Below are positions 10,514-44,140 of a stretch of DNA of 64,000 nucleotides, in pieces. The position numbers were made by a program, and so were the translations under genes. This DNA is from Flavobacterium piscisymbiosum (lineage in GTDB: Bacteria > Bacteroidota > Bacteroidia > Flavobacteriales > Flavobacteriaceae), in the NCBI RefSeq assembly GCF_020905295.1, contig NZ_JAJJMM010000001.1, forward strand, positions 682,001 to 746,000, read 5' to 3'. The notes below the pieces were generated by a model. It was not told where the DNA came from. It was given only the letters and a program-made list of their open reading frames with translations, and made no database searches. Position 1 is the stretch's first letter. Each line of letters opens with the position of its first letter.

Positions 10514-10615
10514 ATAGATTTACTAGGTTTCTAATTGGAACGCCCTTCTCCCGAAGTTTCGGGATCGCTCAGGGTGACAAATCTGAAATCTAAAATCTAA
10601 AATCTAAAGTTCTCA

Positions 10616-40435: not shown

Positions 40436-41200
40436 TTACTTCTTAAACTGTGTCAAAGCCTTTTTTGAAAAATCAGACAAAACCAATTTTCCGGTAATAG
40501 CAGCACGTTCTATAAGTAACGATTCCCAATGTTCTGTTCCTTCCCAAATAATTTTCTTCATTTCCTGCAAAGCTTCGGGATTGTACAAACTTAATTTTTC
40601 AGCAAAATTCGCAACTGCATTATCAAGATCTTCCGCATTATGAATTTCCGAAAATAATTTATTTGCTAAAGCCCACTCTGCCGATTTCCATTCGTGTGCA
40701 GCCAGTGTCATTTCGGCCATTGCAGCTTTTCCTATTTTGCGGGAAACGGCAGGCTCAATCACAAACGGACCAATACCAATTGCCAGTTCAGATAATTTTA
40801 CAGCACTTTCAGGAGTTGCCAAAACATAATCGCAAGCCGATATAATTCCTACACCGCCGCCAACAGCTTTTCCCTGAACACGGCCAATAATAAGTTTAGA
40901 GCAATTGCGCATGGCATTTAGCAAATGAGCAAAACCAGAGAAAAACTCAGTTCCCTGCTCCTCATTTTCTACCTGCAGAAGCTCATCAAACGAAGCACCT
41001 GAACAAAACACTCTGGATCCTTCGCTTTGTAAAATAATTACCGAAACAGTTTCCTTAAGACTTAAAGAATTGATTTCGGCTGTTAATCTATCCAACAATT
41101 CTCTTGGAAAAGAATTACTCGCCGGATGACCAAATTGCACTTTTGCAACAGCATTATTAAAGACAGTTTGTAAAGAACCGTTTTGATTTTCTGAACTCAT
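40436..41200 (-). CDS. Enoyl-CoA hydratase/isomerase family protein
   Basis: A 254-residue crotonase-fold protein. The oxyanion-hole segments are SEGSRVFCSGASFDEL (about 53-68) and GRVQGKAVGGGVGIISACDYVLATPES. It probably hydrates or isomerises acyl-CoA. The catalytic glutamate typical of enoyl hydratases is at ELAIGIGPFV. The specific pathway is not apparent; its neighbours are unrelated. Confidence 0.92.
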   Translation of the reverse strand: MSSENQNGSLQTVFNNAVAKVQFGHPASNSFPRELLDRLTAEINSLSLKETVSVIILQSEGSRVFCSGASFDELLQVENEEQGTEFFSGFAHLLNAMRNCSKLIIGRVQGKAVGGGVGIISACDYVLATPESAVKLSELAIGIGPFVIEPAVSRKIGKAAMAEMTLAAHEWKSAEWALANKLFSEIHNAEDLDNAVANFAEKLSLYNPEALQEMKKIIWEGTEHWESLLIERAAITGKLVLSDFSKKALTQFKK

Positions 41201-41306
41201 AAAAATAGATTTGATCGTAAAGTTACGGTTTTGAAAAATAATTTCGCCTGAACCCGATTTGAAATTTGTTTTTTGAAAATTAATTGACTTTATTTGCTAT
41301 CGCTTT

Positions 41307-41377
41307 GGGGGATTAGCTCATTTGGCTAGAGTATCCCGATCTGATCGGGAAGGTGACCGATTCGAATACAAATTCTA
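41307..41377 (+). pseudogene. Broken chimeric tRNA copy with palindromic anticodon arm
   Basis: The first 25 bases (GGGGGATTAGCTCATTTGGC and onward to GAG) are identical to the tRNA-Ala 85 bp downstream. The anticodon arm is replaced by TCCCGATCTGATCGGGA, a near-perfect palindrome (loop read as ATCTGAT, nominal anticodon CTG). After the T loop TTCGAAT the 3' T stem and acceptor strand are lost (ACAAATTCTAAA), so it cannot fold into a working tRNA. It now lies between the presumed promoter and the real tRNA. Confidence 0.8.
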
Positions 41378-41391
41378 AAGTTTACAAAAAA

Positions 41392-41465
41392 GGGGGATTA
41401 GCTCATTTGGCTAGAGCGCTTGCCTGGCAGGCAAGAGGTGATCGGTTCGAATCCGATATTCTCCA
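41392..41465 (+). tRNA. tRNA-Ala (anticodon GGC)
   Basis: A complete 74-nt cloverleaf. The 7-bp acceptor stem GGGGGAT / ATTCTCC contains the G3-U70 wobble pair, the identity element of tRNA-Ala. The D arm is GCTC/GAGC, the anticodon arm CTTGC-CTGGCAG-GCAAG gives anticodon GGC with U33, and the T arm is ATCGG-TTCGAAT-CCGAT. The discriminator is A and CCA is not encoded. It is followed by the first GIY-YIG unit. Confidence 0.95.
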
Positions 41466-41482
41466 CAAATATTTCACAAAAA

Positions 41483-41516
41483 AATACCCAAACATAGATA
41501 TATGTTTGGGTATTTT
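41483..41516 (+). terminator. Hairpin terminator, unit 1
   Basis: A perfect 14-bp stem (41483-41496 with 41501-41514), 4-nt GATA loop, then TTTTC. It follows the tRNA by 17 bp and precedes the nuclease ATG by 17 bp. Confidence 0.85.
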
Positions 41517-41530
41517 CATTTACACAAACT

Positions 41531-41923
41531 ATGTTTTACACTTATATCTTATTTTCAACCTCACTTAACAAATATTATATTGGGTCGTGTCAAAATATTG
41601 AACAACGCTTACAAGATCACTTAAACAGCAGAAGTAAGTTTACCAAAATCGCCAAAGATTGGGAATTAAAATATTTTGAAACTTTTCTCACCCGCAGTGA
41701 AGCCTGCAAAAGAGAATTGCAAATTAAAAAAATGAAAAGCAGGAAATACATCGAAACATTAATACAAACATTTCACAAAAAAATACCCAAACATAGATAT
41801 ATGTTTGGGTATTTTCATTTACACAAACTATGTTTTACACTTATATCTTATTTTCAACCTCACTTAACAAATATTATATTGGGTCTTGTCAAAACATTGA
41901 ACAACGCTTACAAGATCACTTAA
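41531..41923 (+). CDS. GIY-YIG nuclease, copy 1 (fused to readthrough tail)
   Basis: The first 80 residues form a compact GIY-YIG nuclease domain: FYTYIL and KYYIGS (the GIY and YIG strands), the conserved Arg in QRLQDH, and the KRELQIKK segment with the catalytic-type glutamate. The frame then lacks the usual stop, because the tRNA fragment that supplies it is deleted. It runs on through the unit-2 leader to 41923, giving 130 residues with a meaningless tail. The native end would be near 41772. Confidence 0.85.
   Translation: MFYTYILFSTSLNKYYIGSCQNIEQRLQDHLNSRSKFTKIAKDWELKYFETFLTRSEACKRELQIKKMKSRKYIETLIQTFHKKIPKHRYMFGYFHLHKLCFTLISYFQPHLTNIILGLVKTLNNAYKIT
41782..41815 (+). terminator. Hairpin terminator, unit 2
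   Basis: Identical to the hairpin at 41483-41516. It lies inside the readthrough tail of copy 1 and before the ATG of copy 2. Confidence 0.8.
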
Positions 41924-42078
41924 ACAGCAGAAGTAAGTTTACCAAAATCGCCAAAGATTGGGAATTAAAATATTTTGAAACTTTTCTCACCCGCAGTGAA
42001 GCCCGCAAAAGAGAATTGCAAATTAAAAAAATGAAAAGCAGGAAATACATCGAAACATTAATACAAACAAAAGGCTAG
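41830..42078 (+). CDS. GIY-YIG nuclease, copy 2 (intact)
   Basis: An 82-residue single-domain GIY-YIG protein, nearly identical to copy 1 (one visible change, Cys to Arg at residue 68). It has no DNA-binding extension. Its last codons AAA GGC TAG come from the D-arm sequence GGCTAG of the tRNA fragment, so the stop codon is inside tRNA-derived sequence. Nearest family: the short UPF0213/YhbQ-like GIY-YIG proteins. It may cut DNA at the tRNA gene; unproven. Confidence 0.9.
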   Translation: MFYTYILFSTSLNKYYIGSCQNIEQRLQDHLNSRSKFTKIAKDWELKYFETFLTRSEARKRELQIKKMKSRKYIETLIQTKG

Positions 42079-42128
42079 AGTATCCCGATGCATCGGGAAG
42101 GTGATCGGTTCGAATCCGATATTCTCCA
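42073..42128 (+). pseudogene. tRNA 3' fragment with palindromic anticodon arm (unit 2 end)
   Basis: Starts at GGCTAGAG (D loop/D stem) and runs to TATTCTCCA. The anticodon arm is replaced by TCCCGATGCATCGGGA (42083-42098), a perfect 16-bp palindrome. T arm ATCGG/CCGAT and the acceptor 3' strand are identical to tRNA-Ala. The 5' acceptor strand is absent. Confidence 0.85.
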
Positions 42129-42145
42129 CAAATATTTCACAAAAA

Positions 42146-42179
42146 AATACCCAAACATAGATATATGTTTGGGTATTTT
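42146..42179 (+). terminator. Hairpin terminator, unit 3
   Basis: Third identical copy of the 14-bp-stem hairpin with GATA loop. Confidence 0.8.
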
Positions 42180-42193
42180 CATTTACACAAACT

Positions 42194-42442
42194 ATGTTTT
42201 ACACTTACATCTTATTTTCAATCTCACTTAACAAAAATTATATTGGGTCTTGTCAAAATATTGAACAACGCTTACAAGATCACTTAAACAGCTGAAGTAA
42301 GTTTACCAAAATCGCCAAAGATTGGGAATTAAAATATTTTGAAACTTTTCTCACCCGCAGTGAAGCCTGCAAAAGAGAATTGCAAATTAAAAAAATGAAA
42401 AGCAGGAAATACATCGAAACATTAATACAAACAAAAGGCTAG
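42194..42442 (+). pseudogene. GIY-YIG nuclease, copy 3 (nonsense mutation)
   Basis: The same length and frame as copy 2, but codon 34 (AGA, Arg, in the others) is TGA at 42293-42295. A few further substitutions exist (Thr10 to Ile, Tyr15 to Asn). The remaining frame is intact to the AAA GGC TAG end, so inactivation is recent. Confidence 0.88.
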
Positions 42443-42492
42443 AGTATCCCGATGCATCGGGAAGGTGACCGGTTCGAATCCGGTATTCTCCA
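42437..42492 (+). pseudogene. tRNA 3' fragment with palindromic anticodon arm (unit 3 end)
   Basis: Same layout as the fragment at 42073-42128. The T stem is ACCGG/CCGGT instead of ATCGG/CCGAT, a paired (compensatory) change. It is followed by different flanking DNA, marking the right end of the array. Confidence 0.85.
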
Positions 42493-42504
42493 CAAACATA
42501 TTTT

Positions 42505-42540
42505 AAGTCTATAAATTTATTATTTATAGACTTTTTTTAT
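42505..42540 (+). terminator. Terminator to the right of the array
   Basis: AAGTCTATAAAT / ATTTATAGACTT (42505-42516 with 42522-42533) with a 5-nt loop and T run. It begins 13 bp after the last tRNA fragment and may be the original terminator of the tRNA gene, displaced by the insertions. Confidence 0.75.
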
Positions 42541-42769
42541 TTCTACTACATCCTTATTCAATACAAAACTTGTTTAGATTAGAGCTGTTTTACACAAGAT
42601 CATATTTAACTTCTTAAGTTGTCATCAAATTATCTTAATTTAACCTCTGTAACAATTCTTCAAACATTTCGTCTATATATAACATTAAACAGGACAAATT
42701 TCAGCATAAAAGAACATTTTGCTTCATTTACAAAACAGACAACCAGTAACATAAACCAGAACCAACCGT

Positions 42770-44140
42770 ATGAAAAATAAAATCTTACTTCTATTTTTAT
42801 TTTTAACAACCTTAGGATTTGCGCAAAAACCAACCTTTAAGATTAAATATTCTGAGCAATTGGCAGTTTTTATTTTTTTACAAAGTCTATCCGAGAATTA
42901 CCATGAAAATGTTTTCAAAACCGAATTCGAAAAATCAAAATACAATACCGAAAAATATAAAACTATCATTTCAAACTTTGATAAATTAAATATCTATTAC
43001 AGTTATCGGTTTGATGAATATCCTTTCGGTTCAAAAAAGACAATGCAAACGGAAGACATCGTGAAAAAAAATCTGATTGAAACTGAAAACCTAACAGATT
43101 TCAAACTTCGAACTATTGGCTTTATTTCCAGCAAAACGTTGAGTGATTTTGCAGAAAGTATTTTAGCATTTACCCCAATTTACAACGAATTAATTTATAA
43201 TCCGAACAAAGAAAAATTCGAAAAACAAGTCGAAGAAATTAAAAAATACTCTAACGAGCATAATATCGAAAACTACTTTCAAACAGGTCTAACATTTTAC
43301 AATTCCAGTTGGGATAATTCAATTCCTTTCGAAATAGCTTTTTATCCCCTACCCAATTCTGAGGGATTTACAGCACAAGCATTTTGCAACAATTTTATTA
43401 GCGCTGTACAAACCGACTTAAAATCGCACAAAGATTTATTTAGTGTGATGCTGCACGAAACGTATCATATTATTTATGACGAGCAATCACTCGAAGTAAA
43501 AACCCAAATTGATCAATATTTTAAAGAAAGTAAATCAAAATACAGCAATTACGCTTATCAGCTTATGAATGAAGCTTTGGCAACAGCATTAGGAAATGGC
43601 TATGTTTATGGAAAACTGGACGGACAAATTGATCCCGGAGATTTGTATAATAAAAAATACATCAGTCTTATGGCAAAGCAAATTTATCCCTTAGTAACAG
43701 AATATATCGACCAAAAGAAACCTATGGATAAAAACTTTATCGACAGTTACATCAATCTCTATGAAGTAAATTTCCCGGACTGGATAAACGAACTCAATAA
43801 TATAATGAGTTACCGATATGTTCTCACCGAAAACGAAGACGATATTAATGCCATAAGAAAAATGTATCGTTACCGTTCCAGAACCGAAGGAGAATATCAA
43901 ATTACCGAAGCCAGCATCGAAAAGATGAAAAAAACATCACTTACAAAAGTGATCATTATTTCAAAAAACAGTGCCGAAAAAATCAAATTATTAAAAAATG
44001 AATTCCCGGAATTAAAAAACTGGAAGGCTAATGCTAACAAGGAATTTGCAAACATGATCTTATTAACTGATAAAAGTCAATTGATTGTAATCAACCAAAA
44101 AACATCGACAATTGAAACGCTTTTTAAATCCATAAAATAA
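42770..44140 (+). CDS. Secreted HExxH putative metalloprotease
   Basis: A 456-residue protein. Signal peptide 1-18 (GFAQ end). The zinc-binding motif HETYH is at 229-233, and a later NEALATALGNG offers a third ligand Glu268, a gluzincin-like layout. The N-terminal 200 residues and C-terminal 100 are not recognised. The secreted enzyme may act on peptides in the periplasm or outside. The family resembles the Bacteroidota proteins annotated DUF4932 or DUF2268, uncertain. Confidence 0.75.
   Translation: MKNKILLLFLFLTTLGFAQKPTFKIKYSEQLAVFIFLQSLSENYHENVFKTEFEKSKYNTEKYKTIISNFDKLNIYYSYRFDEYPFGSKKTMQTEDIVKKNLIETENLTDFKLRTIGFISSKTLSDFAESILAFTPIYNELIYNPNKEKFEKQVEEIKKYSNEHNIENYFQTGLTFYNSSWDNSIPFEIAFYPLPNSEGFTAQAFCNNFISAVQTDLKSHKDLFSVMLHETYHIIYDEQSLEVKTQIDQYFKESKSKYSNYAYQLMNEALATALGNGYVYGKLDGQIDPGDLYNKKYISLMAKQIYPLVTEYIDQKKPMDKNFIDSYINLYEVNFPDWINELNNIMSYRYVLTENEDDINAIRKMYRYRSRTEGEYQITEASIEKMKKTSLTKVIIISKNSAEKIKLLKNEFPELKNWKANANKEFANMILLTDKSQLIVINQKTSTIETLFKSIK

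Follow-up and report, generated by a model that had tools for sequence, protein, structure and literature searches.

The window, a 64,000-nt stretch of the Flavobacterium piscisymbiosum genome, contains between 41307 and 42533 a decayed tRNA-Ala copy, an intact tRNA-Ala(GGC) and three units each made of a hairpin and a GIY-YIG ORF, in this order and all on the forward strand. The intact tRNA gene (41392-41466), already recognised in a preliminary description of this DNA, was identified by ARAGORN and matches Rfam RF00005 with 61.6 bits. It is preceded by a left remnant (41307-41376) with a 5' half that is identical over 25 nt (41307-41331), the palindrome TCCCGATCTGATCGGGA (41334-41350) and a decayed 3' half. 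Three 300-nt copies starting at 41465, 41764 and 42128 (pairwise identities 296/300, 295/300 and 293/300) carry an identical hairpin with 16-bp arms and one GIY-YIG ORF each, in agreement with the three units described before. The first hairpin (41481-41516, 16-nt arms, terminator-like) is followed by ORF copy 1 (41531-41923, 130 aa, domain part 41531-41770), the second inverted repeat (41780-41815) by the intact copy 2 (41830-42078, 82 aa) and the third (42144-42179) by copy 3 (42194-42442), which an in-frame TGA interrupts at codon 34. Units 2 and 3 terminate in the 3' part of tRNA-Ala, namely right remnant 1 (42073-42129; D-arm end, palindrome at 42083-42098, T arm and 3' end) and right remnant 2 (42437-42493; palindrome at 42447-42462). 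Between units 1 and 2 no such part is present, a deletion that had been correctly noted, and because of it ORF 1 continues into unit 2. Right remnant 2 forms the right end of the insertion; the sequence 3' of it is not element-like, and a hairpin at 42505-42533 (forward strand) was taken for the displaced native tRNA trailer, its match to the trailer of the relative L113 being modest (score 38, highest shuffled score 30). Upstream of the array lies a host gene on the reverse strand (40436-41200), presumably enoyl-CoA hydratase-like, which was used as site anchor in relatives.

In all three broken tRNA-Ala copies of the window a TCCCG...CGGGA palindrome takes the place of the anticodon arm; in both right remnants it is TCCCGATGCATCGGGA. 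These downstream copies retain the T arm and 3' end together with just a piece of the 5' half, and the stop codon of copy 2 lies within this tRNA-derived sequence. The 3' halves first seen at the ends of units 2 and 3 are therefore present but not plain. As to the proposed flanking direct repeats, AAATATTTCACAAAA follows the intact tRNA and the first right remnant, but is absent after the last one. Only GIY-YIG ORFs were found inside the window units (ORF list and PF01541 search), no ORF of integrase size occurs in the ORF list for 41307-42533, and no group I intron was among the 13 Rfam matches at E<=1 for 41000-42800. A second, distantly related case lies behind tRNA-Val in the same genome, and its tRNA-Val remnants again have the anticodon arm swapped for a hairpin of the TTCCGA...TCGGAA type. 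As the architecture recurs there and in most relatives examined, the window layout is not due to chance, and we regard the architecture as established. From remnants with palindromes on both sides, it looks as if the native tRNA had been split at the palindrome and an intact tRNA lay between its parts, which contradicts the earlier idea that the element simply supplies a tRNA 3' end. For the same reason the full unit may exceed the repeat of about 363 bp. The minimal, nuclease-only element associated with tRNA genes that was postulated at first is otherwise strongly supported.

TCCCGA...TCGGGA palindromes are also dispersed over Flavobacterium genomes, with 0 to 171 per genome; the window genome (G000) has 171 compared with 1 for a reversed-pattern control, an example being that at 10549 in the window. 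Those looked at are mostly away from tRNAs; the palindromes form a REP-like family. Palindrome density was considered as an element marker (rho 0.50 with locus number) and dropped; we claim no such link because locus number also correlates with genome size (rho 0.49). At another locus (L142:1500-1724), tandem 104-bp units consist of a tRNA-like T arm, a palindrome and a hairpin and are too short for a nuclease ORF; they are perhaps a non-autonomous derivative.

The copy 2 protein matches PF01541 (GIY-YIG) with E 7.6e-16, the domain occupying residues 1-73 of 82. Y6, Y17, G19, R27, H31 and E63 (L026 numbering) are among nine columns invariant in 20 diverse members. An AlphaFold model shows a single compact domain (mean pLDDT 93.2), and neither the model nor the Pfam search revealed a protein part beyond the nuclease domain. 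The closest structures by sequence are the UPF0213 proteins 1zg2 (E 9e-14) and 1ywl (3e-11), followed by SLX1 entries (1.7e-5 to 0.002) and I-TevI (0.028), while on comparison of folds there is little difference in score between SLX1, UPF0213 and I-TevI. Judged by these sequence matches, the protein is of the UPF0213/SLX1 type. A GIY-YIG nuclease of Neisseria is reportedly specific for single strands. The median dN/dS over 183 unsaturated pairs of 30 intact ORFs is 0.07, which establishes purifying selection and implies that the protein is in use.

Linkage to tRNA genes

A search of 61 Flavobacterium genomes with the 82-aa protein, in which the DNA around every match was fetched, gave 122 matches in 46 genomes. 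The 77 matches at E<1e-6, a line drawn post hoc, form 56 close-family clusters. A same-strand tRNA lies within 200 nt upstream of a copy in 45/56 clusters (median distance 58 nt). Among the 45 weaker matches, six are beside strong ones and 39 are solitary and served as an internal control: none of these 39 has a same-strand tRNA within 200 nt upstream, and only one has any tRNA within about 1.5 kb. The chance expectation is about 0.001 per locus, and the predicted enrichment of homologues beside tRNA genes was observed. The 11 remaining clusters comprise two with a tRNA at 204 and 341 nt, two that begin less than 100 nt from a contig end (L029, L055), five behind an apparent tRNA 3' stub (L049 and L065 have a clear one, whereas that of L048, L063 and L066 is decayed or doubtful) and two with no tRNA in the fetched stretch (L022, L054), of which L022 holds tRNA-Pro-like remnants with palindromes. 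The five stub loci look as if other DNA had been inserted between tRNA and array; the gene after the L065 array, which we take to be thioredoxin-reductase-like, starts like the gene after the intact tRNA-Pro site in L024. A Flavo-1 RNA (RF01705, 67.1 bits) was found at L054:904-976, near the nuclease locus. Two to six ORF copies are present in 12/56 clusters, and 27/61 genomes have no locus at E<1e-6.

At the scale of the phylum, a profile of 20 members (E<=1e-8) gave matches in 249/395 genomes and 124/170 genera. For 28 further loci from this search, a tRNA lies within 200 nt upstream in 24, two are at contig edges and two have none; for another 20 loci, taken as the next list entries with two entries skipped, the tRNA is within 200 nt in 17 and at 241 and 403 nt in two, and one has none. 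For the best 80 of 153 relatives from named genomes, a same-strand tRNA was found within 120 nt upstream in 67, at 121-1500 nt in eight, in none of four at contig edges and not in one further case, a few of these tRNAs being oddly typed by ARAGORN (L282, L308). According to record titles, carriers include Flavobacterium, Aequorivita, Algoriphagus, Pedobacter, Mucilaginibacter, Neolewinella, Chitinophagaceae and Ignavibacteria; in one match from a Calditrichaceae MAG the contig ends before any tRNA. One query each of phages and plasmids with the window protein found no copy, and a single query with the L026 protein found none in viral contigs. Recurrence beside tRNA genes is established.

Thirteen tRNA isotypes occur within 200 nt of the nuclease genes (Ala, Val, Lys, Asp, Asn, Met, Pro, Arg, Phe, Ser, Thr, Leu and Gly), and they are clustered on the protein tree: 52 label changes are needed compared with 139 after shuffling, with 'no tRNA seen' treated as one label, on a poorly resolved tree of 211 proteins and only 83 columns. 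When the unlabelled rows are removed, the isotypes need 34 changes; the shuffled value of 139 belongs to the full set of labels. From the 52 versus 139 changes, lineages mostly hold to one tRNA yet have switched, and this isotype fidelity is likewise established.

tRNA remnants and empty sites

A clear 3' part of the upstream tRNA was detected in 116/189 distinct units; the other 73 have none at the threshold used. In the 116 remnants the tRNA resumes mostly at positions 43-47 or 56-61. The former, just 3' of the anticodon arm, prevail in Ala, Val, Pro, Arg, Lys and Ser units, the latter, in the T loop, in Asp, Thr and Gly units, and Asn and Met units are mixed. A stem of at least 6 bp lies just 5' of the resumption point in 104/116 remnants versus 2% of shuffles; these values come from a separate shuffled control, the hairpin counts of the remnant scan itself holding by construction. 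The motif T[C/T]CCG or TCCGC is found in 96/116 remnants and at the equivalent place in only 2/116 intact tRNAs. An upstream copy of the tRNA 5' half was observed at 69/153 element-bearing tRNA sites, followed by a hairpin at 55, some of the 69 being ordinary tandem tRNA genes (Asn at L038 and L210, Arg at L205, Lys at L294). At Ala sites the number of upstream remnants varies from zero to six. In Ala elements the most frequent palindrome is TCCCGATGAAAAATCGGGA on the left but TCCCGATGCATCGGGA on the right (15/36). Upstream remnants were found at 26/40 occupied and 5/15 empty Ala sites (p 0.065), or at 27/41 and 4/14 (p 0.027) when L260 is reassigned by hand to the occupied group, its ORF appearing among the matches of the relatives scan.

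In 38 of the 40 Ala-type Flavobacterium loci (39 named loci and the window) the same host gene lies beside the tRNA, and beside this gene the tRNA-Ala site is empty in other species. Such empty sites, and sites of variable copy number, had been predicted and do exist; the comparison is between species, with one genome per species in the collections, and no gain or loss at the level of strains was observed. For the junctions, 60-nt stretches from 32/40 Ala loci were compared with the trailers of 14 sites without the ORF, upstream remnants being present at some of these sites; the eight loci left out have no exact remnant end. The alignment of junctions, as proposed at the outset, revealed a native-like trailer after the last remnant: at 27/32 loci the 60 nt 3' of the last remnant outscore the 60 nt 3' of the intact tRNA (medians 65 and 22; shuffled 20, maximum 30), and the 60 nt after the intact tRNA are shared with other elements (median 91). 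From this resemblance the units look like precise insertions, and insertion relative to the empty sites of other species is established. Five of the 32 loci fail the test; three of them (L254, L256 and L262) are element-like 3' of the last remnant, which may perhaps be explained by loss of a further unit. The insertion is clearest in a sister pair whose host genes are 90.8% identical, L261 (Flavobacterium ginsenosidimutans) being occupied and L114 (genome G049) empty. Both the upstream region and the trailer of L261 continue the sequence of the empty site. Between them is the array, made up of a pair of 5'-half remnants, a tRNA whose anticodon stem differs, a single nuclease ORF and a single remnant. 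The number of ORF copies per cluster reaches six, and arrays differ between near relatives.

ORF identity at the Ala-type loci tracks host-gene identity (Mantel r 0.63) and, with 38/40 loci sharing the host gene, the distribution may be largely vertical with loss. In the pair L263/L272 the ORFs are far more alike than the host genes (88% versus 69%). The intact tRNA retains the arm that would be cut. Protection of this tRNA by recoding of the anticodon arm was rejected, as occupied and empty Ala sites show identical alleles, and there is weak support for joint travel of tRNA allele and ORF (partial r 0.12, p 0.03); the allele is shared with the nearest locus by ORF in 19/37 cases and by host gene in 18/37. 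Over the 55 loci at the hydratase-like gene, the tRNA-Ala allele can differ at 4 or more positions between close species, for example between L247 and L249, whose host genes are 95% identical.

Proposed cycle and rival explanations

Taken together, the units are probably minimal selfish homing elements of tRNA genes that encode a GIY-YIG nuclease of about 82 aa and keep an intact tRNA together with remnants in which an arm has become a palindrome. The element would comprise the nuclease gene, the terminator-like hairpin, the intact tRNA in front and remnants on one or both sides, with the anticodon or T arm swapped for a palindrome. Cleavage, movement by homing and the role of the palindrome are what we infer. 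The nuclease would cleave a tRNA gene that has no element yet, within its anticodon or T arm, and an occupied locus would serve as repair template, its 5'-half and 3'-half remnants providing the homology. The tRNA present before would end up split at palindromes, and the inserted intact tRNA would keep the cell alive. Tandem arrays could grow or contract through the same breaks, for which phage SegB is a reported precedent, and the palindrome may protect the remnants or be itself the substrate. A homing element is the most economical reading, to be taken with caution because the intact tRNA is not recoded, evidence that tRNA and ORF travel together is weak and inheritance is partly vertical. 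Further points against it are that the nuclease domain stands alone in the protein, that the queries of phages, plasmids and viral contigs found no copy, that five of 32 loci fail the junction test and that 73 of 189 units gave no 3' part of the tRNA at the threshold used. We raise more tentatively, as a possibility, a categorically new kind of element: hairpin-ended, splitting a tRNA at an arm and carrying the complete replacement with a minimal GIY-YIG nuclease ('cut and rescue'), in tRNA-specific lineages across Bacteroidota including Ignavibacteria.

The same element might instead use a structure-specific step, in which an SLX1-like nuclease cuts cruciforms or hairpins, i.e. the palindromes and tRNA arms, with the palindromes as element ends, just as hairpins serve as element ends in IS200/IS605. 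The position of the palindromes on hairpin arms of the tRNA, the closeness by sequence to UPF0213 and SLX1 structures, and the difference between left TCCCGATGAAAAATCGGGA and right TCCCGATGCATCGGGA, as two ends might show, all speak for such a step; yet the palindromes occur genome-wide (171 in G000, 1 in the control) and may be unrelated repeats, and fold similarity shows no activity, with SLX1, UPF0213 and I-TevI having similar scores, so that we consider this variant rather unlikely. An old gene inherited vertically beside tRNAs, duplicated in tandem by unequal recombination between tRNA repeats and frequently lost, would account for the Mantel correlation, the common neighbour of 38/40 Ala loci and the isotype fidelity without any mobility. 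Such a history is unlikely in view of the element-type sequence behind the intact tRNA and the trailer of native character behind the last remnant (27/32), the palindromes in remnants on both sides, the thirteen isotypes over a phylum and pairs like L263/L272.

Purifying selection and SLX1-like sequence would also be expected of a nuclease domesticated by the host, e.g. for upkeep of tRNA copy number or recombination at tRNA genes; a comparable role has been described for eukaryotic SLX1 at rDNA (PMC1564403). The 27/61 genus genomes without a locus at E<1e-6, the broken copies and the differing arrays of near relatives make this very improbable. Finally, the up to five clusters behind a tRNA 3' stub recall the far end of an island, as if the units were passengers at the attachment site of ordinary tyrosine-integrase elements, an explanation to which we give hardly any credence: no ORF of integrase size accompanies the window units, and palindromes and 5'-half remnants would be left unexplained.

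Comparison with known systems

New here are the anticodon-arm palindromes in every broken copy of the window and the breakage of ORF 3. The recurrence beside many tRNAs across Bacteroidota suggests a very small parasite that lives off tRNA genes without disabling them. If this is true, the common and little-studied 'GIY-YIG nuclease family proteins' of Bacteroidota would be selfish elements of tRNA genes and their units would rank among the smallest mobile elements. A role would be found for SLX1-like minimal nucleases, and there would be an explanation why tRNA loci hold broken copies of the gene and arrays that vary. The units would also be an instance from nature of an essential gene damaged by an element that brings a working copy. 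An 82-aa protein and a 75-bp target make the idea directly testable. Among the open-access PMC matches listed, judged by title or abstract and with subscription papers and preprints outside this scope, there was no description of tRNA-linked GIY-YIG units in bacterial chromosomes.

SegB of phages T4/T6 is reported to be a free-standing GIY-YIG homing endonuclease beside tRNA genes that cuts inside tRNA genes with the preferred motif RAWTSGAAC (PMC13096335; PMC2988022), and it drives tandem amplification of its own locus via homologous recombination (PMC13096335). In our own reading this motif would resemble the T arm in reverse complement. Both systems share a GIY-YIG nuclease gene adjoining tRNA genes; however, SegB is phage-borne and longer than about 82 aa, whereas the Flavobacterium unit is chromosomal, encodes an UPF0213/SLX1-like protein of about 82 aa and, unlike SegB, has tRNA remnants with palindromes as recurring parts. 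In I-TevI and Seg enzymes the nuclease domain is followed by a separate DNA-binding part. Here the domain fills residues 1-73 of 82 in one compact model, and the tRNA-array nuclease is not a member of that family. The UPF0213 and prokaryotic SLX1-like proteins (1zg2, 1ywl), closest by sequence, are likewise a single minimal domain; the 39 solitary weaker GIY-YIG matches in Flavobacterium genomes are mostly small too and, unlike the array nucleases, lack tRNA linkage.

Tyrosine-integrase elements that target tRNA genes leave a working tRNA and a displaced 3' part upon insertion, whereas the unit has no integrase, a palindrome in the displaced part and 5'-half remnants in addition. REP/RAYT systems link palindromes to an HUH-type transposase; the ORFs within the unit itself are all of the GIY-YIG type. 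Group I introns with homing endonucleases are reported in tRNA genes (PMC3984707) and are similar in their insertion at a tRNA gene and in the possible use of a GIY-YIG enzyme; the unit differs in that no intron was found in it and the split tRNA stays unjoined, accompanied by an intact copy. Homing endonuclease genes have a defined site with empty alleles elsewhere, both of which were found here, between species, and we file the units as working like homing endonuclease elements.
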